Virus record (IMG/VR): IMGVR_UViG_3300048033_000922
Location: 1-27,200 of that record
Direction: 5' to 3' (one strand)
Length of the DNA: 27,200 nucleotides
Source of the DNA: a virus
Every line of letters starts with the position of its first letter. The stretch's first letter is position 1. The position numbers and the translations under genes are program-made. Positions 154 through 21,659 of this stretch are shown here, piece by piece. The notes under the pieces are model-generated. The model did not search any database. It was given only the letters and a program-made list of their open reading frames with translations, and was not told where the DNA came from.

Positions 154-3100
154 ATGGCAGGTTATACAAGACAGAGTGCTGCTGATATTGTTTCTGGTCA
201 GGTTATTAAAGCTGAACCAGTACACAATGAGTTTGAACAGGTTGTAGCAGCATTTAATGCAAGCACTGGACACAGACACGATGGCACTTCAGCAGAAGGT
301 GGCCTCGTTCCTCTAATTTCAGACACTAACCAGTATAGTAAAGTTGTTGTCGATACAGCTAACAACAGAATTAATTTCTTTACTAATGTTGGTAATGCAG
401 CAGTAGAACAGATAAGGATACAAGATGGAGCTATTGTTCCTGTCACTGATGAAGATATTGATTTGGGTTCTGCGGCTGCTGAGTTCAAAGATCTTTACAT
501 TGATGGTGTGGGTTATATCGACACTCTGGCGGTGCATGAAAATGCTACTATTACGGGTAACCTTACCGTTGATGGGAATACTACTCTTGGTAGTGACGAT
601 AGTGATACTGTTACAGTAAATGCTGATGTTGCCTCAGACCTTATTCCTTCTGCAGATGCAACATATGATCTAGGTGCTACAGGTAGTGAGTGGAATGATG
701 CCTACATTACTGGCACAGCAAACATTGACAGCCTTGTAGCTGACACAGCAGACATTGATGGTGGTAGTATTGATGGAGTTACTATCGGTGCAAATGATGC
801 TGCTCCTGCCGACTTTACCACAATGGACACAACAGGTAATGCTACTGTTGGTGGAACATTTGGTGTAACAGGTAACACAACACTTTCTGGTACTCTTGGG
901 GTTACAGGTGTTTCTACATTCTCTGATACAGTGTGTGCACCTGACCTAAAAGCCACAGGAACATCAACCCTTAGCACAGTAGATATTAATGCAGGTAATA
1001 TTGATGGCACTGTTATCGGTGCTACTTGTACTGCTGCTGGTAGCTTTACTACAGTTAGTACGACAGGACAGGGTACTTTTGCTTCAGTCGATATCAATGG
1101 CGGTACTATTGACGGTGCTACTATTGGTGGGACTACAGCATGTCCTATAACAGGTACAACAGTCACAGCTAACACTTGTTTCGTAGGTGATATCACTGGT
1201 GCTGTTTCAGGAAATGTTACAGGTAACTTATCTGGTAATGCTGCAGGTTGTCACACAGGAAACTTTGATGGTGTAGTCGGTGCTACCACACCTGATGCTG
1301 TAACTGGGACAACCATCACAGCTAATACTTGTTTTGTTGGGGACGTCACAGGTGATGTATCAGGTGCAGTCACAGGGAACGTAATAGGTGATCTAACTGG
1401 TGATGTAACCTCAGTAGGTACTTCTTGCTTCTGTGATATCAATATGTCTGGCACAGCAGGTATTGATCTAGGTTCTGCTAAGATTACTTCTCTTGCAACT
1501 CCGACTGCCGATTCTGATGCAAGCACAAAAGGGTACGTTGACCAACAGATTACAGACCTGATTGGTGGTGCACCTGGTGCCCTTGATACTCTTAATGAAC
1601 TAGCTGCAGCTATCAATGACGATGCTGCATTCTATACATCTGTTACAACTTGTTTAGGTACTAAACTAGACACTGCTGGTGGCACTATGACAGGGGATAT
1701 TACCCTTGGTGCTAACAAGGCTACATCTACATCTACACCTACTACAGATGATACACTAACTCGTAAGGGTTACGTTGATACACAAGATGCTCTAAAGCTA
1801 AACCTGACTGGTGGAACCATGTCGGGTGCTATTGCTATGGGCACATCAAAGATCACAGGACTAGGTGATCCTACCTTAGCACAAGATGCAAGCACTAAGG
1901 CTTACACAGATGCTTGTGTAGCAACAGCAATGCCTTTGTCAGGTGGTACATTCACAGGAAATGTAGAAACTACTTGTCCTATCATTTCTTGCTACACGCC
2001 CACAAATGCATGTGACCTCACTAATAAATGTTACGTTGACTCTATTCTAAGTTCTGCTACAGATGCAGCCACTTCAGCTACTTGTGCTGCTGCTAGTGCA
2101 GTTGCTGCTGCATCCTCTGAAACTGCAGCCTGTTCATCTAAAGATGCTGCTGCTTTATCTGCTAGTGCTGCAGCCGATTCTTATGATGACTTTGATGACA
2201 GATACCTTGGTGATAAGACTTCAGACCCATCAGTAGACAACGATGGTGATGGACTTATTACTGGTGCATTGTACTGGAATACTACAGACAATGCTCTGAA
2301 AGTCTATGATGGTTCTGCATGGTCATCTGCAGCATTTACACTAGGTGATGCTCTTACATGTGTTGCAGGTGATTCTTCTCCTGCTTTAGGTGGTAATCTT
2401 AATGCTGGTACGAACTGCATCTACGGTACAGGTGCAGTCTGTGTTTCTAATCTATATGGTACACTGACAGGTAACGTTAGTGGTGATGTTACTGGTACTG
2501 TAAGTGATATCAGTAACCATGACACAGATGATCTAGCAGAAGGTACTAACCAGTACTTCACAACAGCTAGAGTAGACAGCCACTTAACAGGTGGTACAGG
2601 TGTTACTTACACAACTGGTACAATAGCTATTGGACAGGCTGTTGGTACATCAGACAACGTATGCTTTGGGTCTGTCTGTGTTACAGGTAACCCAACCCAG
2701 GCTTGTCAACTTGCAACTAAAGAATACGTTGACACGATTGCTGCTGCTGGTATTCACTACCACACACCAGTACGTGTTGAATCTCCAGACAGTGCAGGTA
2801 GCCTGAATGCTACTTATGACAATGGTACAGCAGGTGTAGGTGCTACACTTACTAACAATGGCACACAAGCTGCCTTGGTTATTGACGGTGTGACTGTAAA
2901 CACTAATGATCGTGTTCTTATTTACAGCCAAACCAATGCTTACGAGAATGGTATCTACACTGTTACCAACACTGGTTCTGCTTCAACTAACTGGGTTCTT
3001 ACTCGTGCTACAGATGCTGATACTTACGGTGCATCTGATCCTGATTCCTTCGGGGAAGGTGATGCATTCTTCGTAAAAGAAGGTAATACTGGTGCTGGTG

Positions 3101-4467
3101 AACTTTATGTTATGAACACATCAGGTGTTATAACATTTGGTACAACACCAATTACGTTCTCTGTTATTGCTGAGACTGCTGTCTACAGTGCAGGTAACGG
3201 CTTGACATTAGACGGTACAACCTTTAATGTTGGAGCAGGAACAGGTGTTACAGTCAATGCTAACAACGTTGCTATCGGACAGGCAGTAGGTACATCTGAC
3301 AACGTTTCATTCCAGTGTGTAACTGGGACATGTTGTTTTAAAGCACCAATCGTATGTGCTTCTACGGCTCTTACTGCTCCCTGTGTAAATGTAAGTACAT
3401 GTGCAAAAGCACCTATCGTATGTGGTAGTACTTGTATAGCTTCTCCTTGTTTGTCAGGTAATGCTACATCAGCAACATCTGCTGCAGCTTGGACAACAGC
3501 TAGAACACTATGTATCTGTGGAGATGTAACTGGCTCTGCTTCAGTAGATGGTTCTGGTAACGTGAACTTACTTACTGCAGTTGCAGACGATAGTCACAAC
3601 CACACAGTAGCTAACGTTGATGGACTAGCAACATGTTTGTCAGGTAAAGCTGCAACGAATGGTTCTACGTCTAACAACTTTAATGGTGCATGTATTTGTG
3701 CTGCTAACTGTTTTAAATCTCCTTATGTGTTTGTTACATGTGGCTGTGCTGCAAACTGTGTTAAGTCATCAATTTTCTGTGCTACTACTACTTACTGTGG
3801 AGCAAACATAAAAGTTGCAAACATTTGTACATCTGGTACTGGCCCTATTAAAACAGGTGTTGGTTACGGTTCTGTAGCTATGACCATCAATGATAGTGGT
3901 GGTAATGCTAACTTAACCTTTAACCATGCAAATCAGTGCCCAGACCAGCCTGGTAATGCAGGACGTATTACTGTTAATACAGATGCTAACACTGCTGTTT
4001 CAATGACATTCGGCCTAAAACAAAATGTCAGTGCAGGTTCTTTACAACCAACTACTACTTATTTTACAGTTGATTGTTATGGAGCTAATACAACTGGTTG
4101 TCATCGTGCAACAGTATGTTTAAAATCAGGAGTTGTCTGCGGTACAACAACCAGAGGTACAACAGCTTGCTTCACTGACTTCAACTCTACTTCTGACTGC
4201 AGATGCAAGGACAACATTACTACGGTAGATGATGCTTACAATAAAATCGGTCAGATCAGAGGTGTGAACTATAACTGGAAAGATTCTGGTAAGTACACAA
4301 TGGGTGTTGTTGCTCAAGAAGTAGAAGAAGCATTTCCAGAACTTGTCACAACAGATGACGATGGTTACAAATCAGTCAACTATAATGGCTTGATAGGTGC
4401 ACTCATTGAAACTGTGAAGTGTCTACAAGGTAAAGTAGAGGAACTAGAGAATGGCTCTAAAGGTTAG
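154..4467 (+). CDS. Large tail fibre with C-terminal Peptidase_S74 intramolecular chaperone
   Basis: A 1437-aa probable trimeric tail fibre. The N-terminus carries a GHRHDG motif (residues 39-44) of the kind found near the virion-attachment end of marine phage fibres. Then come repeats of the type DLG-x-E-(F/W)-x-D-x-YI (about 100-190), IDG-x-IGA...FTT repeats, GNVTG/GDVTG repeats, an Ala/Ser-rich helical stretch (about 630-680), a YDGSAW module, a module starting near VRVESP (about 873), and two copies of IAIGQAVGTSDNV. Residues about 1340-1437 match the S74 chaperone family: the catalytic motif SDxRxK appears as SDCRCK at 1347-1352, followed by a G-V-V-A-Q-E-V-E-type core. In this family the chaperone folds the trimer and cuts itself off at the Ser of that motif. 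Cysteine is absent from residues 1-260 and then frequent (about 52 in 261-1437). The stop overlaps the next gene by 17 nt. Fibre and S74 calls are strong; the receptor is unknown. Confidence 0.92.
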   Translation: MAGYTRQSAADIVSGQVIKAEPVHNEFEQVVAAFNASTGHRHDGTSAEGGLVPLISDTNQYSKVVVDTANNRINFFTNVGNAAVEQIRIQDGAIVPVTDEDIDLGSAAAEFKDLYIDGVGYIDTLAVHENATITGNLTVDGNTTLGSDDSDTVTVNADVASDLIPSADATYDLGATGSEWNDAYITGTANIDSLVADTADIDGGSIDGVTIGANDAAPADFTTMDTTGNATVGGTFGVTGNTTLSGTLGVTGVSTFSDTVCAPDLKATGTSTLSTVDINAGNIDGTVIGATCTAAGSFTTVSTTGQGTFASVDINGGTIDGATIGGTTACPITGTTVTANTCFVGDITGAVSGNVTGNLSGNAAGCHTGNFDGVVGATTPDAVTGTTITANTCFVGDVTGDVSGAVTGNVIGDLTGDVTSVGTSCFCDINMSGTAGIDLGSAKITSLATPTADSDASTKGYVDQQITDLIGGAPGALDTLNELAAAINDDAAFYTSVTTCLGTKLDTAGGTMTGDITLGANKATSTSTPTTDDTLTRKGYVDTQDALKLNLTGGTMSGAIAMGTSKITGLGDPTLAQDASTKAYTDACVATAMPLSGGTFTGNVETTCPIISCYTPTNACDLTNKCYVDSILSSATDAATSATCAAASAVAAASSETAACSSKDAAALSASAAADSYDDFDDRYLGDKTSDPSVDNDGDGLITGALYWNTTDNALKVYDGSAWSSAAFTLGDALTCVAGDSSPALGGNLNAGTNCIYGTGAVCVSNLYGTLTGNVSGDVTGTVSDISNHDTDDLAEGTNQYFTTARVDSHLTGGTGVTYTTGTIAIGQAVGTSDNVCFGSVCVTGNPTQACQLATKEYVDTIAAAGIHYHTPVRVESPDSAGSLNATYDNGTAGVGATLTNNGTQAALVIDGVTVNTNDRVLIYSQTNAYENGIYTVTNTGSASTNWVLTRATDADTYGASDPDSFGEGDAFFVKEGNTGAGELYVMNTSGVITFGTTPITFSVIAETAVYSAGNGLTLDGTTFNVGAGTGVTVNANNVAIGQAVGTSDNVSFQCVTGTCCFKAPIVCASTALTAPCVNVSTCAKAPIVCGSTCIASPCLSGNATSATSAAAWTTARTLCICGDVTGSASVDGSGNVNLLTAVADDSHNHTVANVDGLATCLSGKAATNGSTSNNFNGACICAANCFKSPYVFVTCGCAANCVKSSIFCATTTYCGANIKVANICTSGTGPIKTGVGYGSVAMTINDSGGNANLTFNHANQCPDQPGNAGRITVNTDANTAVSMTFGLKQNVSAGSLQPTTTYFTVDCYGANTTGCHRATVCLKSGVVCGTTTRGTTACFTDFNSTSDCRCKDNITTVDDAYNKIGQIRGVNYNWKDSGKYTMGVVAQEVEEAFPELVTTDDDGYKSVNYNGLIGALIETVKCLQGKVEELENGSKG
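3334..3780 (+). repeat. Cys-flanked KAPIVC-type protein repeats inside the S74 fibre
   Basis: Four related short motifs occur at residues 1061 (CFKAPIVC), 1083 (CAKAPIVC), 1186 (CFKSPYVF) and 1202 (CVKSSIFC). The first two are exactly 22 residues apart. The DNA copies have diverged at synonymous positions, so this is an old repeat kept at protein level. Cys or its neighbours recur at the repeat edges. The repeats probably make successive turns or strands of the fibre shaft. Confidence 0.6.
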
Positions 4468-4666
4468 TGGTACAACTGTTATTGATAACAGTAAGAACAT
4501 TATATCTGGAACACCTTCAGTACAGGGGACGATAGTAAAAGCTAACGTCCTCACTGCACCTTCTGGTACAACAGCACAAAGACCTAGTTCACCAAACACA
4601 GGTCACATATTTTTTGACACAGATGAAGGTAAGCTAATGGCTTACAATGGAACCGAATGGGTTTGA
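4451..4666 (+). CDS. 71-aa stand-alone fibre attachment module, paralogous to the N-terminus of the next gene
   Basis: A small protein, MALKVSGTTVIDNSKN... to ...NGTEWV, whose whole length aligns with residues 1-72 of the 1152-aa protein that follows: shared GTTV-x-DNS-x-N near the start, PSGTTAQRP in the middle, and FDTDEG-x-L-x-x-Y-x-G-(S/T)-x-W at the end. It starts inside the end of the S74 fibre gene (17-nt overlap), which suggests translational coupling. It has no Cys, unlike its paralogue. It may be a remnant of a once longer fibre, a virion adaptor, or a chaperone/connector for the fibre. I cannot tell which. There is no frameshift signature just after its stop that would fuse it to the next gene. 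Confidence 0.75.
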   Translation: MALKVSGTTVIDNSKNIISGTPSVQGTIVKANVLTAPSGTTAQRPSSPNTGHIFFDTDEGKLMAYNGTEWV

Positions 4667-4696: not shown

Positions 4697-4912
4697 ATGG
4701 CATATAAGATTAATGGCACTACGGTGGTCGATAACAGCAGGAACGTTTGTGCCTGTTGTGTTACCTCGTGTTGTATTACAGCTAGTACACGTATGGATGT
4801 TCCTAGTGGAACAACAGCCCAAAGGCCAGGATCTCCTGCCACTGGATCTATCTATTTTGATACTGATGAAGGTTCTCTTGTTTCTTATGACGGCTCTGCT
4901 TGGAATGCAGTA
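4697..4912 (+). repeat. Second copy of the fibre N-terminal module (paralogue of 4451-4666)
   Basis: Residues 1-72 of the Cys-rich protein align with the complete preceding 71-aa protein. Conserved blocks are GTTV-x-DNS near the start, PSGTTAQRP, and FDTDEG near the end. The variable middle is where the Cys pairs sit in this copy. It looks like a tandem duplication of an attachment domain. Confidence 0.8.
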
Positions 4913-7900
4913 GGTGGTGGAGCAGGACTAGAAATAGAAAATCTCACTACTAGTAATACTGATGCTTGGCATTTTGGTACAATGTACCACTGTGACGAAC
5001 AGTATAGAACATGTTTTATCTACAACCAAACATGCCATGGTTGTACAGATATTTCAGCAGCAAATTCTGCTATGGGTGTTAGTTGTGTTCAAAATGAAAT
5101 GTTTTGTAGAGACCATTGTGGTAACCCATACAGATGGAGTGCCTGTGCCTCGGCCTCTTTTTATGTTCCTGGCCCAACCCCTCAATGTTTTTTCTGTATT
5201 TGTGGTGTTTTTAACCATGGGTGGGGCATGGCTCTCCCTATTACCTACAAAGGTGGTCAACCAGGTTGCATGGTATGCCAATGCTTAGGTGGCTTAGGTG
5301 GTTTTGGTAGTTACTTTGTAAATGGTAATGATGGAAGTATTGTTAATTATTTATATTCAAATGCAATATGCTATGGTCAACATCCATTTTCTAGTGGCAC
5401 AGGTATCAATAACTGGAATGAAACTTACGTAAATAAAAATGGTGGTATGACTTCCCATCAAATGCTAGTACCTTTTACTTGTATTTGTGGAAGTAGTGGT
5501 TGTTATAAACAACCTTATGGTAGATTTCACCACTTTAGATATCATGGGTCTACTTCTTATGGTGCTATAGCAGGAGCTAGAATACCTCTTTGTATGTTTG
5601 ATAGAGCTTCTAAAAACTTTGACTGTCCTGCAGCATTTCTAGTTACGTCAGATACTTTTGGAAATGGTAACGAAGAGGTATGCTGCTGGGCTTGGAGAAT
5701 AAGATCAGGTGGTATTTCTGGCTGGCCAGGTAATTATCACATAGGTGGTCACTACGCCTTAAATGATTGTATGAACTTATGTCCTCAGTGTACTATTTGT
5801 GGGGATGCTTGTTTTTGGTGTTTTGCTAGACATAATATAAAACAAGAGTATTTCTGCTGCTGTCAATGGTTTACTAAATGTATTGGTAGCCTAATGAGTT
5901 CTAGAACAGACATATGGGGTGGTGGTGATGCTACCATGTGTGATCTGTATGATAAAAACGTCTGTAGTTTTGTAACTAACGGACTTTTTGACTGTATGCA
6001 AATTAAGTCATCACAACCAAGTTGTTGCCCATTTATGATTATGGTTAGATATGGTGATCAAAATAACTGTTTCTGTTTTGGAACTTTAGCTCAAGGTCTT
6101 GGATGTGGTTGTTGTGGGCTTGCATGGCTATCAAGAAATGGTTGCTGCATTCACTATCACGTAAAAAATAATGCTATAAACCCAGATACGTGTAACTTGA
6201 AAATAGATGCTGTATATCCGACATGTAAGTGTTGTCAGTGGAATTTGTATGACGGTGTTTTAAATAGGGTCTGTCAATGTCAAAAGTGCAGCTATGGTTC
6301 TTGTGACTTATGTTGGACCTGTGCACAGTGTTGTTTGGGTTGTACTAAAAACAATTCACCTTTTGATGTTTATAATATTGGGCATGCTAATTGCATGTAT
6401 CAGTCGGGATGGCATACTCCTACACAATGGGTAAATGACGGTAAAATAACTAATTGTGCCTCAATCGCCCCAGCATGTAACTACTCTGGTGAAGCTCAAA
6501 ATTGTTCGTTTCAGTATAGAACTCTTATTGATTTCTCTTGGAATGCTTGGAGCCATTATTGTTGTAGAAAAGCTATCTTCCATGCTTTCCATTGTTATGC
6601 CCCTACTATAACCGTATTCGATTGCTGTAAAGGATTGATGGAAAGAAACATGAACCTAGACCATTTTCACTCTGGTTGTGAGTGGATGAAGTTTCTTCAA
6701 ATCTATGCAATGAGTCCATCTAAAATCTGTAGCTGTGCTACCAGCAACCCTGCTGCTTGTTACTTTGCTAATTCTTGTTGCAACGGTTGTCATTGCTGCC
6801 TAGCACAATGTGTTTGTGCAATTACAGGGTGTTCTGAAAGATCACTGTTTTTCCATTGCTATGGTTATACTCCTTGGAGACAAACTCATACAATGACAAA
6901 CCTTGGTTTCCTACCCCCAGGCCAAGGTTGGAGTCAGAATACTTACAGAAATAAAGAAAACGATCACATCGTTATGATCAGGGTTTTGAAACACGACAAT
7001 AAAGGCTGTACTTGTGGTGGTGATTATATTTTCTGGGTTGGTGCTATCTGCTATGACCTTCATAATAATTGTATCTCAAAAGTAAATACGTACTTCCCCT
7101 CTGATACAACTCATCTTCAGAGGCTAGATTCTCTAATATATTGCTGCTGGTGTACTGGTGCTGGGGAACCAACAGACATTACTGAAAGAGCTATGGTCAC
7201 CAATAAAATGAGGTGTGGGTCACACGACTTATATATTAATAATAATACTAGCTGCAGACAATCTACCAAGTATATCTCTGTAACTCCGTATGGGTCCAGA
7301 CAGTATTGGATAGACAGTGGTTGTACAGATACTGGTGGTGTTACCCTTGTTATGAGTAACATGCCTGGTGAAAAAATTAATGTTTGCTGTTGTAGTTGCA
7401 GGTGTGCTCACACCTATGCATGTCAGGCATGTTGTTGTGGGTGTTGTAAGTCAGAAGGTATTTCAGGCTACATGAGAATTGTTCCTGGGGTTACTCAGGT
7501 TCTTAAAGTACCTTACTCTAAACCCCTGGAGTGTGTAGGTTGGAGATCACAGCCTGACTTTGCAAACTGGCTTAACGAGTATTTCTTCCCCACTAAAAGA
7601 ACTAATCCTTGCTTCCCAATAACTACTGGATCTACAGCACACAAGTGTTTGGTCTGCTGCCAGGAAAGTAGTTCGGCCTTCCCCCACCATATTAGACACT
7701 ATCCTTGTAATAGGGTGTACCCATACCAGTGTAGACTTTACTGGCCTATTTATGCAGGTCAAGATTGTCAACACAGAGGTATGAGATTTAAGTTTATGAA
7801 ATCAAATTGTTGTTTCTGGTTTAACTGTTGCTGTGTCACAGGTGTTGCAAATGGAACTTTCTGCCCCAAAATGATTTGTACTCACCACTTCTGTCGGTAT

Positions 7901-8155
7901 GGTTTGAAAGGATGTACAACAACTTGTGCAACAATATACGATCAAATATGTGCTTGCCACCTAGACTCTAATGAATCTTCTAAAAGATATATTAGTAGAT
8001 TTATAGATTCCGACAATAACTTAAAAGCACGTCCATACTACGTAGATGGAAGTGGCAATAGGTTCAGTGAATCTTATATTAAATATGGTAACGGTGAAAG
8101 TCCAAACGATAGATTCCACAGACTTTGGAACGAAGACATTATTCAGTGTTGCTAG
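4697..8155 (+). CDS. Extremely cysteine-rich 1152-aa fibre/adhesin-type protein
   Basis: No family is recognised for the main body. Residues 1-72 are a fibre N-terminal module shared with the preceding 71-aa protein, ending in YDGSAWNAV, which places it on the virion by analogy. From residue about 97 on, the protein is packed with Cys (about 127 in total, 11%, hand count), with about 21 CC or CCC runs and high Trp, Tyr, Phe, His and Gly. A CxxC ladder is encoded at 6302-6343 (6 Cys in 14 residues), and 11 Cys in 21 residues at 7385-7447. Near the C-terminus, residues about 1088-1150 have no Cys before the protein ends in CC. No signal peptide or membrane segment is evident. The paralogous stub has ordinary residues where this protein has CACC and SCC, so Cys has been put into, or kept in, a conserved module. 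It is followed by the sugar cassette. Candidate roles: disulfide-hardened fibre, metal-binding fibre, or substrate for thiol modification. All are inference. Confidence 0.8.
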   Translation: MAYKINGTTVVDNSRNVCACCVTSCCITASTRMDVPSGTTAQRPGSPATGSIYFDTDEGSLVSYDGSAWNAVGGGAGLEIENLTTSNTDAWHFGTMYHCDEQYRTCFIYNQTCHGCTDISAANSAMGVSCVQNEMFCRDHCGNPYRWSACASASFYVPGPTPQCFFCICGVFNHGWGMALPITYKGGQPGCMVCQCLGGLGGFGSYFVNGNDGSIVNYLYSNAICYGQHPFSSGTGINNWNETYVNKNGGMTSHQMLVPFTCICGSSGCYKQPYGRFHHFRYHGSTSYGAIAGARIPLCMFDRASKNFDCPAAFLVTSDTFGNGNEEVCCWAWRIRSGGISGWPGNYHIGGHYALNDCMNLCPQCTICGDACFWCFARHNIKQEYFCCCQWFTKCIGSLMSSRTDIWGGGDATMCDLYDKNVCSFVTNGLFDCMQIKSSQPSCCPFMIMVRYGDQNNCFCFGTLAQGLGCGCCGLAWLSRNGCCIHYHVKNNAINPDTCNLKIDAVYPTCKCCQWNLYDGVLNRVCQCQKCSYGSCDLCWTCAQCCLGCTKNNSPFDVYNIGHANCMYQSGWHTPTQWVNDGKITNCASIAPACNYSGEAQNCSFQYRTLIDFSWNAWSHYCCRKAIFHAFHCYAPTITVFDCCKGLMERNMNLDHFHSGCEWMKFLQIYAMSPSKICSCATSNPAACYFANSCCNGCHCCLAQCVCAITGCSERSLFFHCYGYTPWRQTHTMTNLGFLPPGQGWSQNTYRNKENDHIVMIRVLKHDNKGCTCGGDYIFWVGAICYDLHNNCISKVNTYFPSDTTHLQRLDSLIYCCWCTGAGEPTDITERAMVTNKMRCGSHDLYINNNTSCRQSTKYISVTPYGSRQYWIDSGCTDTGGVTLVMSNMPGEKINVCCCSCRCAHTYACQACCCGCCKSEGISGYMRIVPGVTQVLKVPYSKPLECVGWRSQPDFANWLNEYFFPTKRTNPCFPITTGSTAHKCLVCCQESSSAFPHHIRHYPCNRVYPYQCRLYWPIYAGQDCQHRGMRFKFMKSNCCFWFNCCCVTGVANGTFCPKMICTHHFCRYGLKGCTTTCATIYDQICACHLDSNESSKRYISRFIDSDNNLKARPYYVDGSGNRFSESYIKYGNGESPNDRFHRLWNEDIIQCC

Positions 8156-8228: not shown

Positions 8229-9155
8229 ATGAAAACTGTTTTTATGATTGATGGTGGGGCAGGTAGGGCTATAGCAGCTATTCCTGCTCTTATCAAGTAC
8301 TATAAAAAGAATAAAGACTTCCAGATTCTTGTAAACGGTTGGGACTCCATGTTCTGGGGTATTCCTGAGTTACACGATAGGGTCTTTAATCCAGATCAAA
8401 AAGGAGCTATGGAGCAATTCCTTATGGATGCTGACAGAGTTGTCTCTCCAGAACCATATCGAGTTCCAGGTTATTACAAACAAGAAAAGTCTCTTGCTGA
8501 AGCATTTGATTACTTAATTAACGAGACTGATGATCACTCTGACCTTTGTGCTCCTATTCTTAAAACAAATAAGAATGAAGAACTACAAGCTGCTAATTTT
8601 ATGCAGCAAGTGAGGCAACAACAACAAAAACAGAAGACTATTGTTATTCAGCCTTTTGGTAGATCTATTGAGAAACCACAAGAAGGTGTTTTACTAGATC
8701 AGTCTTCTCGTTCTATTAATCCAGATACGTATCTCAAACTGGTAAAGAAACTAGCAACAAAGTATAACCTAGTTTTGTTTGCTGAGAAAAACTTCTGGAT
8801 GCCTGAAGACACATACACCATGAAGCCTGAAGCAGACCTTCGTATGTGGGCATCATTTATTGATGCAGCAGACTACTTTATTGGTTGTGATTCTGTAGGA
8901 CAACACATAGCCAGAGCACTTAATAAACCTGGATCAGTTATTATAGGTTCTACCTTTGCTATAAATACTACCTATCCTAATTACTTTAACATAATTGAAA
9001 GGGATGTCCCAAAAGTTTACTCACCTATTCGTATATCAGGTCTTGAGTCACACTTAGCAGATAGAATAAATGAAAACACTGTTGAGTTTACAGATGAAGA
9101 GATTAATTCTATATATGCTGAAATTGTAAAAGACATCGAAAAGAAGGTGAAGTAA
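8229..9155 (+). CDS. GT9-like glycosyltransferase (ADP-heptose heptosyltransferase type)
   Basis: A 308-aa protein with the two-lobed (GT-B) layout of glycosyltransferase family 9, whose known members move heptose from ADP-heptose to LPS core or, in autotransporter heptosyltransferases, to protein. Seen: N-terminal DGGAGRAIAAIPAL (residues 8-21), corresponding to the family's GG-x-GD...PAL loop; IVIQPFGRS at 138-146, the start of the donor lobe; and ADYFIGCDSVGQHIARAL from about 214, followed by KPGSVIIGST, corresponding to the family's DSG-x-HIAAAL-x-x-P...GST donor site. Length fits the family (about 300-350 aa). It has no signal peptide, so it acts in the cytoplasm. It is followed one base later by the carbamoyltransferase and then the ADP-heptose genes, which strengthens the donor prediction. 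Target (fibre protein, host LPS or DNA) is unknown. Confidence 0.72.
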   Translation: MKTVFMIDGGAGRAIAAIPALIKYYKKNKDFQILVNGWDSMFWGIPELHDRVFNPDQKGAMEQFLMDADRVVSPEPYRVPGYYKQEKSLAEAFDYLINETDDHSDLCAPILKTNKNEELQAANFMQQVRQQQQKQKTIVIQPFGRSIEKPQEGVLLDQSSRSINPDTYLKLVKKLATKYNLVLFAEKNFWMPEDTYTMKPEADLRMWASFIDAADYFIGCDSVGQHIARALNKPGSVIIGSTFAINTTYPNYFNIIERDVPKVYSPIRISGLESHLADRINENTVEFTDEEINSIYAEIVKDIEKKVK

Positions 9156-9156
9156 A

Positions 9157-10872
9157 ATGAATATTCTAGCAATTAACCCAGGTCACAATGGTTCTGCTGC
9201 TCTACTGGTAGATGGTGAGATTAAGTTCTACATTGAAGAAGAACGTCTGTCTCGTACTAAGTATGACGGTAATCCTTACAGAGGTATCCTTGAAGCAATA
9301 CATCATGGTATTGATATTATTGTTTTAGGTGGCACTCACCCAGAGTTTCCTTCGTTACCTTGGACTGGTGAAGATCCTTACTCTGCTCTTGTTCGTAAAT
9401 TCCATCCTAACGTTCAAGTTTTAAAGTTGGCTCATATACATCACCTTGGACATGCTGCTGCAGCTTTCTACAATTCTGGTTTTGAAGATGCTGCTGCTGT
9501 TATTGTAGATGGGTCAGGAACACGACAAGAAATTCAAATCAATGAAGAAGGTCAAAAGAACTCAGGTTTTGAAACAGAGACTATCTTTAACTGTGATTAT
9601 GAAGAAGGTATTAAGCCTGTCTTTCAATCCTTTGGTGGTAACTACGACACCCAGAGAGTTGTCGGTGAGAACCTTGAGATGGACAATGCCATTACACTCG
9701 TTAAAGGATATGAAGCTGTATCAGAGTACCTAGGTTTTGGTTTTATTGAAGCAGGTAAAACAATGGGTCTTGCACCATACGGTAAGTATGATGAAATGAT
9801 TCCTAGCTTGTTCTTTAATGGCAGAGGTAACAAGAATGTTTTTATCCCTAATTATCCTGCTGGTGCTTATATTGATCATACTCGTCACCCCTACCTAACA
9901 CTACGTGAAGATCCTCGTGCTTGGCACAGTGATCCTAATAAGGTGACAGATGCAGCTAAGAACTTAGCTTGGGCAGTACAAGACGAAACACAAAGTCTTG
10001 TAGGAGACTTGATTGAAAAAGCTGCATCAACAACTGGTAAAACTAATATTGTTATTGCAGGTGGATACGGTCTAAATTGTGTAGCTAACTACTACTACAA
10101 GAAACGTTTTCCTGATCTTAACATTTATGTTGATCCTATCTCTCATGATGGTGGTACAGCAATCGGTCTGGCACAGCTAGTGTACTACACAGAAACTAAA
10201 GACAAAACTATTCGTCCACTGAAGACTTTGTATCTTGGCCCTGAACGTGAAGAGTCCTACGACTTTGGTGACATTGAAACAGAGGAAGTAAAACCTGCTG
10301 ATGTAGCAAAGCTTATCTCTGACAAGAATATCGTAGCTTTGTATCAAGGACGTTCTGAGGCTGGTCCTCGTGCACTAGGTAACCGTTCTATCCTGTACGA
10401 TCCCACAGACCCTGACGGCAAGGACACTGTGAACAAGGTCAAAGGACGTGAGTGGTTTAGACCCTTTGCAGGTTCTATGATGCAGGAACACTTTGAGGAA
10501 TGGTTTGATACCTACGGTATGGAAGAGTCACCATTCATGATGTATGCAATGGACTTCAAGTTAGAGAAGCATGGAGAGTGCCCTGCTATCACACACGTAG
10601 ACGGTACTTGCCGTATTCAGACTGTGACTAAAGAGCAGAATGGAACGTATCACACTTTGATTGATGAGTTCCGTAAGATTACTGGTGTACCTATTTTGTT
10701 CAACACCAGCTTTAACTTAGCAGGTGAGCCACTGGTAGAAACACTAGACGATGCAATGAGAACTATTAAGAACTCAGACATAAATTACTTGTACCTACCA
10801 GAACAAGGTCTGTTGGTGAAGTATCCTTACAATGACTCAGTAGTTGAAGAAGTAGAGGAAAAGGCTGCTTAA
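9157..10872 (+). CDS. NodU/TobZ/CmcH-family carbamoyltransferase
   Basis: A 571-aa enzyme with both family domains. The N-terminal ASKHA-like domain starts NILAINPGHNGSAALLVDG and contains HIHHLGHAAAAFY (residues 93-105) and VDGSG near 117-121. These correspond to the His and Asp metal/phosphate-site residues described for TobZ. The C-terminal YrdC-like domain has YQGRSEAGPRALGNRS (396-411), then VKGREWFRPFAG and a typical NTSFNLAGEP. The family moves a carbamoyl group from carbamoyl phosphate, via carbamoyl-AMP, onto a hydroxyl of a sugar or antibiotic. A good ribosome site (AAGGTG) lies at the end of the preceding gene. Its stop overlaps the convergent gmhB-like stop by 4 nt. Next to heptose genes it recalls the 7-O-carbamoyl-heptose of Pseudomonas LPS core, so a carbamoylated heptose is a plausible product (inference). 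Confidence 0.93.
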   Translation: MNILAINPGHNGSAALLVDGEIKFYIEEERLSRTKYDGNPYRGILEAIHHGIDIIVLGGTHPEFPSLPWTGEDPYSALVRKFHPNVQVLKLAHIHHLGHAAAAFYNSGFEDAAAVIVDGSGTRQEIQINEEGQKNSGFETETIFNCDYEEGIKPVFQSFGGNYDTQRVVGENLEMDNAITLVKGYEAVSEYLGFGFIEAGKTMGLAPYGKYDEMIPSLFFNGRGNKNVFIPNYPAGAYIDHTRHPYLTLREDPRAWHSDPNKVTDAAKNLAWAVQDETQSLVGDLIEKAASTTGKTNIVIAGGYGLNCVANYYYKKRFPDLNIYVDPISHDGGTAIGLAQLVYYTETKDKTIRPLKTLYLGPEREESYDFGDIETEEVKPADVAKLISDKNIVALYQGRSEAGPRALGNRSILYDPTDPDGKDTVNKVKGREWFRPFAGSMMQEHFEEWFDTYGMEESPFMMYAMDFKLEKHGECPAITHVDGTCRIQTVTKEQNGTYHTLIDEFRKITGVPILFNTSFNLAGEPLVETLDDAMRTIKNSDINYLYLPEQGLLVKYPYNDSVVEEVEEKAA

Positions 10873-11516
10873 GGTAGCCTATCCACAAATTGGAGGAGGT
10901 TATCGAAAACCTTAGTCTTCTTTCTTAACTTCTCTTTTGAGAACTTCTTTAGCTCTCCTTCAGTGTCCACCCCATGACCAGTTCTTACTAAGATTGGGGT
11001 GGCACCAATTCTCTCAGCAGCTTTAAGGTCAGACATCTTATCGCCTACATAGAAACCCTTATCTTTGAACCTAGTCTTTCCACCAAAGATTTCTTTCTCT
11101 GCTCTGTGAAACATACCTAAATTAGGTTTGGCATAAATATCTTCCTTGAGAGATGACTCAGAGTAGAACAGGCCATCAATAGAGTAGATACCTGCATTAC
11201 CAAATATTTCAAACATACGTTGATGTACAGCCTCTACTTGTTCTTGTGTCTGCAGCCCTTTGAAGATTCCACCCTGGTTAGTAAGTATAACTACTTTGTA
11301 ACCTTTCATACGTAACTTGTGGATAGCTGCTAAGGACTCAGGGTACACCTCAAAGTCTTCAGGATCTGTGATGTAGTGCCCTTTGTCTACGTTGATAACA
11401 CCATCACGATCTAGACCTACAATAGACTTAGGGAAGACTGTAGGCCAATCTGGGGGTAACTCTTGTTGAGGTTGTTGACTTGGTTCTTGTGTAATAATAT
11501 GTTTAAATCTGGACAT
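10869..11516 (-). CDS. gmhB: GmhB-like HAD phosphatase (D-glycero-D-manno-heptose 1,7-bisphosphate 7-phosphatase type)
   Basis: A 215-aa HAD-superfamily enzyme of the histidinol-phosphatase/GmhB branch. It removes the 7-phosphate of heptose 1,7-bisphosphate in the ADP-heptose pathway. Seen: motif I LDRDGVINVD at 35-44 (nucleophile Asp36, acid/base Asp38); motif II LTNQGG at 78-83; motif III Lys130-Pro131; motif IV VGDKMSDLKAAERIGA at 157-172. The first 30 residues are a Gln/Pro-rich extension before the fold. The Cys/His zinc loop present in E. coli GmhB between motifs II and III is missing. It is the only minus-strand gene in the plus-strand block, convergent with the carbamoyltransferase and divergent from the nucleotidyltransferase. 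Context makes the heptose role likely; other sugar phosphates are possible. Confidence 0.85.
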   Translation of the reverse strand: MSRFKHIITQEPSQQPQQELPPDWPTVFPKSIVGLDRDGVINVDKGHYITDPEDFEVYPESLAAIHKLRMKGYKVVILTNQGGIFKGLQTQEQVEAVHQRMFEIFGNAGIYSIDGLFYSESSLKEDIYAKPNLGMFHRAEKEIFGGKTRFKDKGFYVGDKMSDLKAAERIGATPILVRTGHGVDTEGELKKFSKEKLRKKTKVFDNLLQFVDRLP

Positions 11517-11533: not shown

Positions 11534-11944
11534 ATGAAGAAAGTTTTTGTTAATGGTGCATTTGATGTATTGCACTCTGGGCACCTAGATCTCCTTGATT
11601 TTGCAGGGATGCTAGGTGGTCATTTGTTAGTAGCTATTGACACAGACAGGCGTATTGAGTATAACAAGGGTATTGGGAGACCTTTTAATCCTTTGTCAAT
11701 ACGTAAACATATAATGTCTATGTTGAAGCCTGTCAATAGTGTCAGAGTATTTGATACAGACGAGGACTTGGTAGGTATTATAAAAGCTTATCAGCCTGAC
11801 GTAATGGTAAAAGGATCTGATTGGAAAGGGAAGACAATACTTGGGGAGGAGTACTGTAAAGAAATAGTATTCTACGAGAGAACCAATGGGCAGTCTACCA
11901 CAAAAGCAATCGAAGATTTTATTACTAGGCGACAGTTGCTATGA
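11534..11944 (+). CDS. rfaE2: HldE C-domain type nucleotidyltransferase (heptose 1-phosphate adenylyltransferase)
   Basis: A 136-aa cytidylyltransferase-fold enzyme. VNGAFDVLHSGHL (residues 6-18) holds the HxGH nucleotide-binding motif at 14-17; GRPFNPLSIR and PDVMVKGSDW follow as in RfaE2; the C-terminal GQSTTKAIEDF matches the family's CSTT-x-x-I end. It should join heptose 1-phosphate and ATP to give ADP-heptose and pyrophosphate. In E. coli this domain is the C-terminal half of the bifunctional HldE; here it is a separate gene placed before the kinase gene and overlapping it by 59 nt in another frame. A GlmU/TagD-like use with another sugar or alcohol phosphate is the main alternative, made less likely by the neighbours. 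Confidence 0.88.
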   Translation: MKKVFVNGAFDVLHSGHLDLLDFAGMLGGHLLVAIDTDRRIEYNKGIGRPFNPLSIRKHIMSMLKPVNSVRVFDTDEDLVGIIKAYQPDVMVKGSDWKGKTILGEEYCKEIVFYERTNGQSTTKAIEDFITRRQLL

Positions 11945-12641
11945 TGAATATCACACAGGCACTGTATCAAGAATAAGCCCAGAAGCTCCTGTTCCTGTCT
12001 TTGATCTTGGATCTTCTGTAATCAAGAGAGGCATGGCTTACAACGTCTACAACAACTTAGTTAATCTAGGTGCTAGAGTAGACATCATAACAGAGTATAG
12101 AGAACGTAAGCATAGGTACATTGAAGATAAGACTGGTCAGCAACTGATCAGAGTAGATGAAAAGATTAAGACTGAGCACATAGATACAGCAGACGAAGAC
12201 GTAAGTATGTATGATGCTGTTGTTATCTCAGACTACAACAAAGGGTTTGTAGCAGAAGGTGACATAAAAGATTTTAGAGCTAAGTATAACGGCCCTATCT
12301 TTGTTGATACTAAGAAGACCAACCTAGCTCAGTTTGATGGCTGCTTCGTAAAGATAAACCAGTACGAGTTTGAAGCAGCAGAAACACTAACAGACGAACT
12401 GATCGTCACATACGGCTCAAAGAAAGTCGAGTATAAGAACAGAACTTACCTACCCCCTAGTGTAGAAACTCATGATGTGTGTGGTGCAGGAGATACGTTC
12501 CTTGCAGGACTTGTGTTTAAGTACTTGGAATCGTATGATATAGATGCTGCTATTAAGTTTGCAATGGATGCAGCAGCAATAACTGTACAACATAGAGGTG
12601 TATATGCACCTACACTAGATGAGGTAGTAAATGAGACTTGA
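11886..12641 (+). CDS. rfaE1: HldE N-domain type sugar kinase (heptose 7-phosphate 1-kinase), shortened
   Basis: A PfkB/ribokinase-family kinase of 251 aa (family about 310). Seen: ILLLGDSCYDEY (11-22), TVSRISPEAPVPVF (26-39), the near-diagnostic RfaE signature, VVISDYNKGFV (112-122), QQLIRVDEK (85-93) and the catalytic CGAGDTF (199-205, base Asp203). It should phosphorylate D-glycero-D-manno-heptose 7-phosphate at C1. Odd points: the usual GGAAN substrate segment reads RGMAYN at 48-53; the segment between the first sugar-binding loop and QQLIRVD is about 40 residues shorter; and the usual TGAGD is CGAGD. It starts inside the nucleotidyltransferase gene; no better downstream start keeps the first beta strand. 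The stop overlaps the cupin start by 11 nt. Substrate specificity may differ from E. coli. Confidence 0.85.
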   Translation: MGSLPQKQSKILLLGDSCYDEYHTGTVSRISPEAPVPVFDLGSSVIKRGMAYNVYNNLVNLGARVDIITEYRERKHRYIEDKTGQQLIRVDEKIKTEHIDTADEDVSMYDAVVISDYNKGFVAEGDIKDFRAKYNGPIFVDTKKTNLAQFDGCFVKINQYEFEAAETLTDELIVTYGSKKVEYKNRTYLPPSVETHDVCGAGDTFLAGLVFKYLESYDIDAAIKFAMDAAAITVQHRGVYAPTLDEVVNET

Positions 12642-12987
12642 AGGCTTCGTTAAGAAAGGTTGGGGGTCTGAACTAATCTGGGCAACCAACGACAAGTACT
12701 GTGGTAAGTTCTTACAATTTCACTTTGGTGGTAAGTTTTCTATGCACTTCCACAAAGAGAAAGATGAAACATGGTATGTCTTATCTGGTAAGTTTGAAGT
12801 ACACTGGATTGATACCGAAGATGCAACACTACACGTTGAAGAGTTAAATGAAGGAGACACCTGGCGTAATCCACCTCTAGTTCCTCATCAAATATTTTGT
12901 TTAGAGGAAGGTACTATTGTAGAAGTTTCTACTCCTGATTCCGTTGAAGATAATTATCGTGTCGGAAAGGGAGACAGTCAAGAATGA
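12631..12987 (+). CDS. Single-domain cupin, possible sugar-phosphate isomerase/epimerase
   Basis: A 118-aa one-barrel cupin. The first motif follows HxH(x)4E(x)6G with His39, His41, Glu46 and Gly53; the second-motif His is His86 in PPLVPHQIF. All four metal ligands are therefore present, so an active metal site is likely. It opens with a KKGWGSELIW segment, reminiscent of cupins related to the C-terminal part of type II mannose-6-phosphate isomerases. It is wedged between the kinase (11-nt overlap) and the epimerase (ATGA overlap), so it belongs to the same pathway. Since the isomerase GmhA is absent, it could supply an isomerase or epimerase step, but this is inference. A regulatory or sugar-binding role is possible. 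Confidence 0.78.
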   Translation: MRLEGFVKKGWGSELIWATNDKYCGKFLQFHFGGKFSMHFHKEKDETWYVLSGKFEVHWIDTEDATLHVEELNEGDTWRNPPLVPHQIFCLEEGTIVEVSTPDSVEDNYRVGKGDSQE

Positions 12988-13754
12988 AAATCTTAGTCAC
13001 AGGTAGCAATGGTTTTATCGGCAAAAATCTTATCACTAAACTACAGGATGAACATGAAATTATTAGAAACGAATGGGGAATGTCATTCCCTTCAATTAAG
13101 AATCTAGATTGGGTTATACACCTAGGAGCCATTAGCTCCACCACAGAAACAAACATCTCAAAGATATATAGGCAGAACCTAGAGTTCACTATTAAGTTAT
13201 ACGAAGAATGTATTAACAACGATGTTAAGTTTCAATTTGCTTCTAGTGCCTCTGTGTACGGATTGAAGTCAGACTTTAAAGAGACTTCTCCTCTTGATCC
13301 TCAGAACCACTATGCTCGTAGTAAAGCAATGTTTGAGAGATATGTAGAGTTGAGAAATGCTCCTATTACTACACACATATTTAGATATTTTAACGTCTAC
13401 GGACCACAAGAAGAACACAAAGGAAATCAAGCAAGTCCCTTCACCAAGTTTATGGAACAAGCTAAGACGACTGGTAAGATAAAGATCTTTAAAGGATCTC
13501 CTAAATACTTCAGAGATTTTATCCACGTAGACCAAGTTGTAGATTGTCACCAGAGGTTCTTTGATATTGATGAATCAGGTGTTTGGAATGTCGGGACAGG
13601 GAAAGCTCTTAGCTTCTACGATGTAGCCCTAGATGTTTCAGATAAGACTGGTGCAACTATAGATTTTATTGATTTCCCAGATAATTTAAAAGGTAATTAC
13701 CAAGAGTTTACTAAAGCAGACACAACAAAGCTTAGGCAGACTTTAGCATTATAA
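12984..13754 (+). CDS. hldD: HldD/RfaD-like ADP-heptose 6-epimerase (short SDR)
   Basis: A 256-aa extended SDR enzyme that should turn ADP-D-glycero-D-manno-heptose into ADP-L-glycero-D-manno-heptose. Seen: NAD(P)-binding GSNGFIG (7-13); HLGAISSTTET (46-56), typical of RfaD; ASSASVYG (86-93); catalytic Y-x-x-x-K at Tyr110/Lys114; FRYFNVYGPQEEHKG (133-147), where Lys146 sits at the place of the second HldD catalytic residue (Lys178 in E. coli); FRDFIHVDQV and WNVGTGKALSF as in the family. The family is about 310 aa, so this copy has lost loops. ATGA overlap with the cupin gene shows coupling. HldD is by far the best match among SDR epimerases because of the STTE and EHKG signatures. Confidence 0.9.
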   Translation: MKILVTGSNGFIGKNLITKLQDEHEIIRNEWGMSFPSIKNLDWVIHLGAISSTTETNISKIYRQNLEFTIKLYEECINNDVKFQFASSASVYGLKSDFKETSPLDPQNHYARSKAMFERYVELRNAPITTHIFRYFNVYGPQEEHKGNQASPFTKFMEQAKTTGKIKIFKGSPKYFRDFIHVDQVVDCHQRFFDIDESGVWNVGTGKALSFYDVALDVSDKTGATIDFIDFPDNLKGNYQEFTKADTTKLRQTLAL

Positions 13755-13764
13755 GGTATTAAAG

Positions 13765-16700
13765 ATGAGTGGAACAAAGTATTTAAAAACAGAGGGTGTT
13801 CTTACCTATGGTGCCCAACAGTTTGAAGATCTGCCTCCTGAAGCCAAGGAAGCAATTAGTAGTAGTGACAGGCACACTGTAAACTCTGATGGTACAATCT
13901 CTTTTACAGATAGTGATGGGTCACAGCAGCTTATGCCAGTAGGTACTGATGATGCTACTGTAGACCTTTCTTCTATTGATTCAAATGTACTACAAAAAGC
14001 TGCAGACTTAACATACCTGGCTCAGAACACTGGTGTTTCAACTGCAGAGTTAAATAAAGTTTATATTGAACTTGGATTAGACCCAAACGATAGTATGGCT
14101 TTTACTAAAAAAGATGCCATCTTAAGAGAAGCAGGTTATAAACCAGGATCTAACACAGAATTTTACGGTAACAATCAAGCTGCAGACGTTGGTGCTCAGA
14201 TCCTTGTAGAACGTAATGCACAACAACCTACTGAGCAGGACATTATTGATGCTGGCTTAGACCCTAACGAAGTCTCTGTTGTAAATAGTAATGCTGCCAA
14301 TGCTTTTTACCTTGAGCAAGAATTAGCAAATAGAGGTATAGATTCTAGTCAAACTGCTGGAAGAATCGGAAGCACTGCAGGATTCCTTGGTGGTGATCAA
14401 AGTTCTTTAGGTATGACAGGTGCTACACGCATACAACAAGTAAGAGATAATTTTGACAGTATGCTTGCAGAAAAAGCTCCTGACAGTTACTGGATGAATA
14501 AGTCCAAAGAAACTGGAATGACCCCTTCTGAAATGCAGCTAGACATGCTTGAGTGGGATCTCATTAAGAAGAAAGCTGAAGAAACTAGAACTGGTGTAGG
14601 TGGGGGATCTGGTATAACTGGTACTATTAATACTGGTGGTGTAGGTACGGGTACTGGTAATGTCACAGGTGGGGCTACAGGAGATGGAACCTATACTGGA
14701 CCAAACTTTGTAAGTACCCCTAACATTGGAAACATTACCCCTGTCTATGGTGAAGGTCAGACTGGCCTTACTGAAGTAGATATTCCTACTTACGAAGCAG
14801 GACTAGGATTACAGCAGAAACAGTTTGAAGATCGAGCTGTTGAATCTGCTAAGTTAATCCAACCACAGACACTAGCAGAACAACAAGCTGCTGGTGAGGC
14901 TCCTGCCTTTGAGAATAGAATGTACCGTAATAGATTTGGTATGGTTCAGTATATTCAGTTCATTAAAGGACCAGATGGTATCATGAGACCGACAACACCG
15001 ATCCCACAGGGATACTATGAGGTGAAAGGTTTTGGTGCTCAACAGCAAGCTACTGGTGCTGCACAAGGTGGTGTGATTAGATCATTCCAAGAAGGTGGTG
15101 TAAACCCAGCCCTAAACTATCAACCTGGTGGTACTGTTGTCCAAGCTGCTGACGGTACTTACAAGATCAAATACCCTGACGACACTTATTCACAGTCATA
15201 TGATTCAGCTATGAATGCTAAAGCTGCTAATGATATGGGCTTGAGTGGTATGGGTCTTCCTGATTATGCTACGTACTTGCAAGACCAGGGTATCAATATG
15301 AACCTACCTGGTTATGACGAAGCAGCCTATCAGTCGGCATACCAGACTTATATTTCTAATCCTGCTACACTAGAGCAAATAAAAGCAGACCAAGCTGCTG
15401 CAGAGGCAGAGGCTAATCAACCAGACCCTCTGACTGCTAATGTAGGTGGAGATCAACCTCTAGGGGAAACAACTGTATCAGCCGAAGATCTGGCACAGTA
15501 CCAAGCTGACTTAAATGCTCAAGCTTTTGCTGCACCCGGAGGTGCTGTAGCCGCCTCTCCTGTAGCTTACCTTGATCCTAATTCTGCTGGAACTGTTATG
15601 GATTCCAGTACAGGCCAAGCTCTTGGTACAGCACCTATGGTGCAAGAGGATCAGGTGGCACAGATTGAATCTGCTACTACTGCTGATGTTCCTACTGGAC
15701 AGGGTGCTGCAACTTACACAGCTAACCAAGGTTATACTGACGTACAGAAAGCTACAGAAGGTATGACACCTGCCACCATGACAGGTGGCCCTACACAAAC
15801 TATTACAGCAGAAGAGCAGAAGACGAGTTCTGTCTCTGGTCTTGATGCTGCTACAAGTTCTTCTATAGATGTTACAGGACAGCCTACTCGTACACTGCAG
15901 ACAGGACCAGATGGTGAGCTTATCCAAGGTACTGGTGTAGACCAAGCAAAAGTAGGAGAAGCATTCGGTACTGGTGAGGTACAGGCTGCATCTGTCCAAG
16001 GTGAACTAGCTAACTTGATGTCTCAGTTTGAGGGTGGTGACACACCTGCTTGGGCTGCAGGATCGATGAGGGCTGCTTCACAGATGCTTGCCGCCAGAGG
16101 TCTAGGTGCTTCAAGTATGGCAGGACAAGCAGTCATTCAGGCTGCTATGGAAGCTGCTCTACCTATTGCTCAGATTGATGCCAGCAACAAACAGCAAATG
16201 GCTCTATTCAAAGCAGAACAAAGATCTAAGTTCTTAGGTATGGAGTTTGATCAAGCATTCCAAGCTAAGGTTATGAATGCTGCTAAGGTATCTGAGATTG
16301 CTAACATGAACTTCACTGCTGAACAGCAGATTGCTCTTGAGAACTCTAAGGCTGCAAACACAATGGCCTTACAGAACCTAAGTAATGAACAAGCCTTGGT
16401 GATGGCAGAAGCTGCTGCTCTATCTCAACTAGATACTCAGAACCTAAGCAATAGACAACAAGCTGCAGTTCAGAATGCTCAGAACTTCTTGCAAGTAGAC
16501 ATGGCTAACCTAGCCAATGAACAGCAGACAGCTATGTTTAAACAACAGTCTTTGATAAACAGTATCTTGTCTGATCAGGCTGCTGCTAATGCTGCTGCTC
16601 AGTTCAATGCTACATCAGAGAACCAGACTAACCAGTTCTTCTCCAACCTTTCAGCTTCAGTCAACCAGTTCAATGCAGCACAGATGAATGCTATGAAGCA

Positions 16701-17118: not shown

Positions 17119-17119
17119 A

Positions 17120-18085
17120 ATGAATGAACGTGACGCATTAATTGAAAAACGTAAGATGAGAAGGTTGAACAGCCTAGCAGAACTTATCTTAGGAAATGCA
17201 GCAGATAAATCAGCAGCTAGTACACAAGAGATTATTGGTCTTGGGTCTAGGGCTGCTGCTGAAACGGAAGAAGGTTCTCGTAAAGCTATCGGGAATGTTA
17301 AACGTGCAGGTCAAAGATCACAGCAGTTGACAGAACAACTCCTGCCAGATGACGATCCAAGAAAAGCTGAATTAGATATGGCGACTTGGTTGGCTTCAAT
17401 TAGATCAGGACTAGACCCTATTGATCTACCTGAAATGGAAGGTGCTCCTTCCCTTGATTACTTTCAAGGACAGGACATAGACTCTACAGAGGATGCTACA
17501 CAAGCACAGGTTGACACACTGATAGGTTCTCTTGGTGCAGGTTATGACCGCCCATCAGACATTCCTGCTGCAGAAGGATCAGGTGTATACGACTACTCAG
17601 GTCTACCAGATTACATGCAACCTGGATCAGCCTTTAGATCAGCTTTGAATGCTGTAGAAGCAGACAGTTATGACACCATGTTTGGTGAAGCCCATAAGGT
17701 AGATAGTCCCTTCAAAGGTACAAAGATTACACAGATGACTATGGACGAGATCTTTGATCTTGTTGAGTCTGGTGGTGATTTCCATACGCACAATAGAACT
17801 ACACACAATGAAGATACAACTGCTATTGGTAAGTATCAAATGGTAGGGAAAACACTACGAGACCTAAGAGACAGAGGTATCCTTAAGAAATTAGGGATCA
17901 ACAGTGACACTAAATTCACTCAAGATACCCAAGACACTATTGCTATGCACCTTGCTGAGAGAAGAGTTAGACCAAAGTTCAGTATGGCAGAGGCTAGAGA
18001 AGAGCTAAAAAATGAATGGGAAGGTTTTAAAAACCTAAGTGAGGGTGAACTAAACCTTATCATTAACGAAATTAGAGGGTCTTAA
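17120..18085 (+). CDS. Virion-associated muramidase / lysozyme-like protein
   Basis: A 321-aa protein. Residues 1-200 are a helical, acidic adaptor region without recognised motif. From about 208 there is a lysozyme-fold domain: FDLVESGGDF (catalytic Glu probably 216 in ESGG) and AIGKYQMVGKTLRDL (236-250), the pattern seen in phage lysozymes and tail muramidases with E..GG and A-I-G-K/R-Y-Q. It should cut the peptidoglycan glycan chain. With no signal peptide or membrane segment, no holin next door, and a position inside the virion block, a role in local wall opening at DNA entry fits better than end-of-cycle lysis. No Cys was found. It begins two bases after the preceding stop. Confidence 0.78.
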   Translation: MNERDALIEKRKMRRLNSLAELILGNAADKSAASTQEIIGLGSRAAAETEEGSRKAIGNVKRAGQRSQQLTEQLLPDDDPRKAELDMATWLASIRSGLDPIDLPEMEGAPSLDYFQGQDIDSTEDATQAQVDTLIGSLGAGYDRPSDIPAAEGSGVYDYSGLPDYMQPGSAFRSALNAVEADSYDTMFGEAHKVDSPFKGTKITQMTMDEIFDLVESGGDFHTHNRTTHNEDTTAIGKYQMVGKTLRDLRDRGILKKLGINSDTKFTQDTQDTIAMHLAERRVRPKFSMAEAREELKNEWEGFKNLSEGELNLIINEIRGS

Positions 18086-18087
18086 TA

Positions 18088-18636: not shown

Positions 18637-18639
18637 AAC

Positions 18640-21651: not shown

Positions 21652-21659
21652 GTAATAAC

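Follow-up and report, generated by a model that had tools for sequence, protein, structure and literature searches.

A GT9-family gene linked to cysteine-rich fibres points to a probable protein S-heptosylation in marine phages

Enzymatic S-glycosylation of cysteine in bacteria is known from the sublancin/glycocin S-glycosyltransferases (SunS). Protein O-heptosylation of adhesins is carried out by the bacterial autotransporter heptosyltransferases (BAHT) TibC and AAH, which act on TibA and AIDA-I; a four-cysteine iron finger has been described for them, and Asp110 of TibC is the candidate catalytic base, its change to Ala abolishing or largely diminishing heptosylation (PMC4358343). Among phages, all tail components of Agrobacterium phage Milano are disulfide-crosslinked (PMC10811340), and certain sugar gene clusters of cyanophages were earlier called lipopolysaccharide (LPS) genes, with unknown function or as possible 'stuffer DNA' (PMC3037559, 2010). 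Here we analysed 27,200 nucleotides of viral DNA (the window; positions 1 to 27,200 of IMG/VR record IMGVR_UViG_3300048033_000922), in which an open reading frame (ORF) at 4697-8155 on the plus strand encodes a fibre-like protein of 1152 aa with 127 Cys (11.02%), followed by a GT9-family heptosyltransferase gene (8229-9155, plus strand; phrog_8954) and by predicted ADP-heptose genes. We consider it probable that the Cys-rich fibre and its downstream genes form one protein-glycosylation module, and equally probable that the GT9 enzyme, a proposed protein S-heptosyltransferase, modifies the fibre cysteines in the reducing cytoplasm with a sugar that is probably carbamoylated; the cysteines are thus probably sugar attachment points. 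Slightly less firmly, we favour a widespread phage protein S-heptosylation, in which GT9 enzymes put (carbamoyl-)heptose on dozens of fibre cysteines and many unrelated fibre families have convergently reached about 10% Cys.

Direct searches with the whole Cys-rich protein yielded no relatives among viral contigs and only matches to its N-terminal module among phages, the body of the protein having no detectable relatives, and neighbouring genes were therefore used as search handles. The GT9 gene retrieved 29 viral loci including 27 close relatives, of which 26 had a Cys-rich ORF (6.9-12.7% Cys) upstream, while the exception starts at a contig edge. Seven cassette regions read from cyanomyoviruses and single-cell-derived viruses each held one to three Cys-rich ORFs (7.6-12%) upstream of GT9, the other ORFs of at least 120 aa having 0-4% Cys. 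Among 80 loci found with the N-module, eight carry GT9 and all eight have Cys-rich ORFs, two more are truncated within a Cys-rich ORF, and the other 70, with neither GT9 nor a Cys-rich ORF, formed the control set. More distant loci were collected with a GT9 alignment, and the resulting tree held 85 enzymes, of which 59 come from loci with Cys-rich ORFs, 14 from loci lacking them and 12 from contig edges. Of the 73 dereplicated GT9 loci whose flanks were long enough, 59 thus had a Cys-rich ORF, counting a few with long fibres of 4.8-6.4% Cys and locally dense stretches, versus none of the 70 controls (Fisher p ~2e-26, calculated with 67 of the controls); none of 780 ORFs of at least 150 aa in the GT9-less control phage loci reached 6% Cys, so that chance does not account for such a composition. 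Nearly all of the Cys-rich ORFs (130/131) lie upstream of GT9 on the same strand. In the reverse direction, an alignment of the Cys-rich Gly_rich_2-type family recovered 79 loci, where GT9 was present in 57 of 57 that extend 3 kb or more downstream and all 14 loci lacking it were contig ends; the only phages in the phage database with relatives of the Cys-rich proteins of P-SSM2 and S-CAM1 were GT9-bearing ones.

Cys-rich fibres adjoin the heptosyltransferase gene in well over 100 related phage sequences; the different searches partly returned the same contigs. The gene pair occurs in unrelated phages (HMO-2011-type podoviruses, the cyanomyoviruses P-SSM2, S-SSM7 and S-CAM1/3, and others). The ADP-heptose genes and the carbamoyltransferase were ruled out as the partner of Cys-richness by loci that have these without GT9: the cyanophages S-SM2, P-TIM68 and Sf-CH8 carry ADP-heptose genes and no Cys-rich ORF of at least 150 aa in the 171, 131 and 21 kb read, respectively, and two loci with the carbamoyltransferase alone (L040, L074) have no Cys-rich fibres. 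The link between GT9 and Cys-rich ORFs is strong, but it is not universal among distant members. Most loci without a Cys-rich ORF belong to two regions of the tree, and one of these regions has long fibres with mildly raised Cys (58 Cys in 1130 aa in L172, 60 in 2040 aa in L154). Nine GT9 relatives with 43-49% identity (L176, L181, L183, L185, L191, L194, L195, L198, L199) have no Cys-rich ORF nearby. The module also occurs on contigs within archaeal or bacterial metagenome-assembled genomes, e.g. Woesearchaeota and Euryarchaeota (L204-L213), which are probably phage contigs binned with them.

The 104 nonredundant Cys-rich proteins fell into 38 clusters without detectable BLAST similarity to each other, although some clusters may be remote homologues, and their common feature is therefore cysteine content and not sequence. 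They span about 120 to 1460 aa; some contain Gly_rich_2 (PF21722), some the fibre N-module, and many no known domain. Pooled Cys reaches 10.1% in these proteins versus 0.8% in the remaining ORFs at these loci, a 12-fold enrichment, and Lys, Glu and Asp are depleted compared with the neighbours.

The protein at 4697-8155 was first noticed for its composition, and the hand counts of the original prediction (about 127 Cys, about 21 CC/CCC runs, 11 Cys within the 21 residues starting at nucleotide 7385) all proved exact. An ordinary fibre N-module, as had been proposed, occupies residues 1-75 (PHROG fibre/structural match) and is common to many marine phage proteins; the remainder is a variable Cys-rich body. 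Within the N-module, a near-invariant Cys cluster NVCACCVTSCCITAS (4742-4786, plus strand; residues 16-30) replaces the Cys-free NIISGTPSVQGTIVKAN type of the same module and is almost invariant among the relatives. Such relatives, full-length or partial, occur in about 12 of the 27 close GT9-neighbour loci, with 9-13% Cys and 23-43% identity where the alignment is full, and in the remaining close loci the Cys-rich ORFs have in common with the window protein only the N-module, or nothing. Their presence on many independent contigs rules out an assembly artefact or frameshift and bears out the view of a real adhesin-like protein in a normal open frame, as does codon usage (T at position 3: 0.48, versus 0.50 in the neighbouring fibre gene). 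Homologues lacking the cysteines without any pattern would have spoken against that view; instead, Cys is among the best-conserved residues (56-72% retained at an overall identity of 30-53%; for the relatives of the window protein, 56-66% at 30-44%). The expectation that virion proteins have few cysteines holds in this genome, since the proteins of 13765-25088 have none, and with these internal virion proteins Cys codon reassignment or a genome-wide Cys bias is ruled out. Searches of the open-access literature gave nothing relevant on cysteine-rich phage fibres or phage S-glycosylation, in agreement with the earlier statement that no described phage fibre family of this composition was known, and they turned up no account of a phage protein sugar-coated on its cysteines. 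The original prediction was right in its observation and underestimated its importance: it halted at the protein, whereas the explanation sits in the adjacent downstream genes, as GT9 and the ADP-heptose genes follow the fibre.

The GT9 enzyme has 308 aa and two Cys. An AlphaFold2 model built from 77 sequences had a pLDDT (predicted local distance difference test) of 96.5; an earlier one from 10 sequences (pLDDT 52) was discarded. Foldseek placed TibC on top (E 4.6e-10), followed by similar enzymes that include WaaF and WaaC. In VIA-align the Z scores were 23.6 for 3tov, 21.9 for WaaF, 21.1 for TibC and 19.9 for WaaC, with NDH-complex subunits at 18.7-19.7 and then a drop to other GT-B folds (at most 12.8); the root-mean-square deviation was lowest for TibC (2.9 Å, 263 aligned), the enzyme aligning to TibC 97-394. 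The model thus shows the GT-B fold of ADP-heptose transferases over the whole chain. By sequence, the window enzyme reached 18.6 bits with PF01075 (cut-off 22), a model that 39 of the 77 related enzymes hit at E<=0.01 (best 4e-8), its best NCBIfam score was far under the cut-off (24 versus 170 bits), and a profile search of PDB with the GT9 alignment found no glycosyltransferase. The N-terminal GD motif lacks the Asp that acts as catalytic base, a trait of characterised O-heptosyltransferases and not of the whole PF01075; all 77 family members have Arg13 at the position where WaaC and WaaF have Asp13, and by alignment it appears to correspond to TibC Asp110. A thiol acceptor, which may not need a strong base, might allow Arg in place of the catalytic Asp.

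Next to GT9, a NodU/Nol-like carbamoyltransferase (9157-10872, plus strand) is proposed to carbamoylate the sugar. It is followed by genes for a GmhB-like heptose bisphosphate phosphatase (10869-11516, minus strand), an HldE-C-like heptose 1-phosphate adenylyltransferase (11534-11944, plus), an HldE-N-like heptose 7-phosphate kinase of the PfkB type (11886-12641, plus), a cupin similar to cyanophage T4-GC 307 (12631-12987, plus) and an HldD-like ADP-heptose 6-epimerase (12984-13754, plus). For each pathway gene the best NCBIfam match is its own pathway enzyme (GmhB E 3e-36, HldE kinase 1e-35, HldE adenylyltransferase 5e-27, HldD 4e-68), all scoring under the equivalog cut-offs, and by these matches the genes represent most of the ADP-L-glycero-D-manno-heptose pathway. 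GmhA is not in the window; cyanophage versions of the cassette carry their own. HldE is split at 11534-12641 into two genes that overlap by 59 bases in different frames, and GmhB is inverted within the otherwise plus-strand cassette, the inverted gene in cyanophages being HldD. The cyanophage homologue T4-GC 307 bears the RefSeq name 'cysteine dioxygenase'; since S-SM2 carries it together with ADP-heptose genes and has no Cys-rich fibre, the cupin belongs with the sugar pathway. S-SSM7, P-SSM2, S-CAM1 and S-CAM3, all cultured cyanomyoviruses, have the same cassette amid their tail genes, as do single-cell-derived marine viruses; the S-SSM7 copy includes a tryptophan halogenase gene (L033:25098-26582).

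Upstream of the Cys-rich fibre lies a long tail fibre with a C-terminal S74 chaperone (154-4467, plus strand; 1437 aa), whose 52 Cys (3.6%) were overlooked in the original prediction. The fibre best matches Roseobacter phages CRP-1, CRP-9 and CRP-235 and is also related to HMO-2011, and the order of the genes (internal virion proteins, DUF3310, ribonucleotide reductase) is consistent with CRP phages and HMO-2011. The homologues in GT9-less phages have 0 Cys in 1080 aa (CRP-1) and 3 in 1419 aa (CRP-235), with Ala, Thr, Ser, Asp, Asn and others opposite the cysteines, and the GT9 cassette was not found in the regions read of CRP-1, CRP-235 and HMO-2011. At 4192-4218 the S74 motif reads SDCRCKDNI, with two Cys beside the Ser-Asp of the expected auto-cleavage motif. 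Cys avoidance in the virion proteins of GT9 phages was dropped as further support, the GT9-less relatives also being near-Cys-free. The short ORF at 4451-4666 (plus strand), which lies between the fibre genes, encodes a Cys-free version of the N-module (71 aa) that is conserved in the relatives L003, L005 and L028 and may serve as a small adaptor or cap.

We propose that the phage would produce ADP-heptose during infection, with GmhA supplied by the host or by another part of the genome, and that GT9 would attach S-linked heptose to reduced thiols in the Cys-rich fibre and, to a lesser extent, in the fibre at 154-4467. The carbamoyltransferase probably decorates the heptose. The outcome would be a dense sugar coat with one site per about nine residues, which could do the work of charged residues by holding the fibre in solution and could shield or tune the adhesin.

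The original prediction had offered disulfide crosslinking, metal binding or thiol modification as roles of the cysteines, and of these the linkage to GT9 favours thiol modification, as S-glycosylation. Disulfide armour, where post-lysis oxidation of the cysteines would crosslink the fibres and the heptose genes would serve another purpose, has a precedent in the crosslinked Milano tail and agrees with the above-average conservation of Cys positions and the mild enrichment of adjacent Cys (1.5x); we nevertheless regard it as unlikely, because it does not predict a near-obligate heptosyltransferase linkage in unrelated phages and because Cys-count parity is random (even in 53 of 106 proteins, itself weak evidence). 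Binding of Fe, Zn or Cu would suit the 40 His of the window protein and local CxxC runs such as the previously noticed ladder CDLCWTCAQCCLGC at residues 536-549. The ladder is a local feature, though, and since CxxC spacing across the family is at chance level (observed/expected 1.02), metal knuckles are disfavoured; His is hardly enriched (2.1 versus 1.8%) and the GT9 link would be left unexplained, which makes metal sites very improbable. O-heptosylation of fibre Ser/Thr in the manner of TibC with TibA, the cysteines having a separate structural role, draws on the same fold in TibC and AAH, but Ser and Thr are little changed between Cys-rich proteins and other ORFs of GT9 loci (8.5 versus 7.0% and 7.8 versus 7.8%), far from the 12-fold gain of Cys, and the invariant Arg stands where O-transferases have their catalytic Asp, so that we rate it as less likely again than disulfides. 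It is also improbable that the GT9, ADP-heptose and carbamoyl genes alter host LPS or capsule with the Cys-rich fibres as mere passengers. The earlier naming of the cyanophage genes (PMC3037559) fits this explanation, but phages with ADP-heptose clusters and other glycosyltransferases have no Cys-rich ORFs, and hitchhiking explains neither the 38 dissimilar Cys-rich clusters nor the Cys gain in the long fibre. Furthermore, LPS of marine Synechococcus WH8102 and CC9311 contains neither heptose nor 3-deoxy-D-manno-octulosonic acid (PMC4515613) and WH8102 is the host of the GT9-bearing phage Sf-FS3; the ADP-heptose of these cyanophages is therefore not for the host LPS core.

Several observations weigh against S-heptosylation. 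The 14 GT9 loci without a Cys-rich ORF include four records, read fully or nearly, with no large ORF above 6% Cys; they hold at most ORFs of 111-153 aa (~8% Cys) or fibres of 3.6-4.2%, a contig-edge effect is not supported for them, and their GT9 enzymes keep Arg13. The correspondence of Arg13 to Asp13 is based on aligning a short sequence motif and on the aligned range. A search around the cysteines gave no clear sequon, the fairly conserved Cys positions would also be given by disulfides or metal sites, and the sugar could instead go to Ser/Thr residues of these proteins. If S-heptosylation is nevertheless true, sugar genes so far unexplained in cyanophage genomes such as P-SSM2 and S-SSM7 gain a function, abundant marine phages carry a new protein modification, and a heptosyltransferase family with thiol acceptors exists; the cultured phages allow a direct test.

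Compared with known systems, the cassette is the same as cyanophage T4-GC 302-308 of P-SSM2 and S-SSM7, where GT9 is T4-GC 302 and the carbamoyltransferase 303, together with HldE, cupin and HldD homologues; there the genes were listed as hypothetical or LPS genes, and 'cystein' does not occur in the text of PMC3037559, where the link to Cys-rich proteins was not noted. Phage Milano resembles the present case in its functional tail cysteines and differs in that its tail components are disulfide-crosslinked; we know of no heptosyltransferase link for its disulfide network. SunS likewise S-glycosylates Cys, as proposed here, but belongs to another GT family with another donor and modifies a single Cys of a small peptide, unlike the dozens of virion-fibre cysteines proposed here. 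The LPS enzymes WaaC, WaaF and WaaQ share fold and donor class (Z 19.9-21.9) and are set apart by the catalytic Asp13, by acceptor, by gene context and by the NCBIfam score. Closest are the BAHT systems, with a dedicated GT9-fold heptosyltransferase, an adhesin partner, an ADP-heptose donor and adhesin hyperglycosylation, the counterparts of which are predicted here: adhesin and donor genes adjoin the window GT9, which would heptosylate the adhesin. In TibA the acceptor is Ser, whereas Cys is proposed here, and the window enzyme lacks the N-terminal beta-barrel, is phage-encoded and is accompanied by a donor pathway of its own as well as a carbamoyltransferase. Because the four-Cys iron finger and the catalytic Asp were looked for and are absent, we do not file the module as a BAHT member, yet most likely it works like the BAHT systems.

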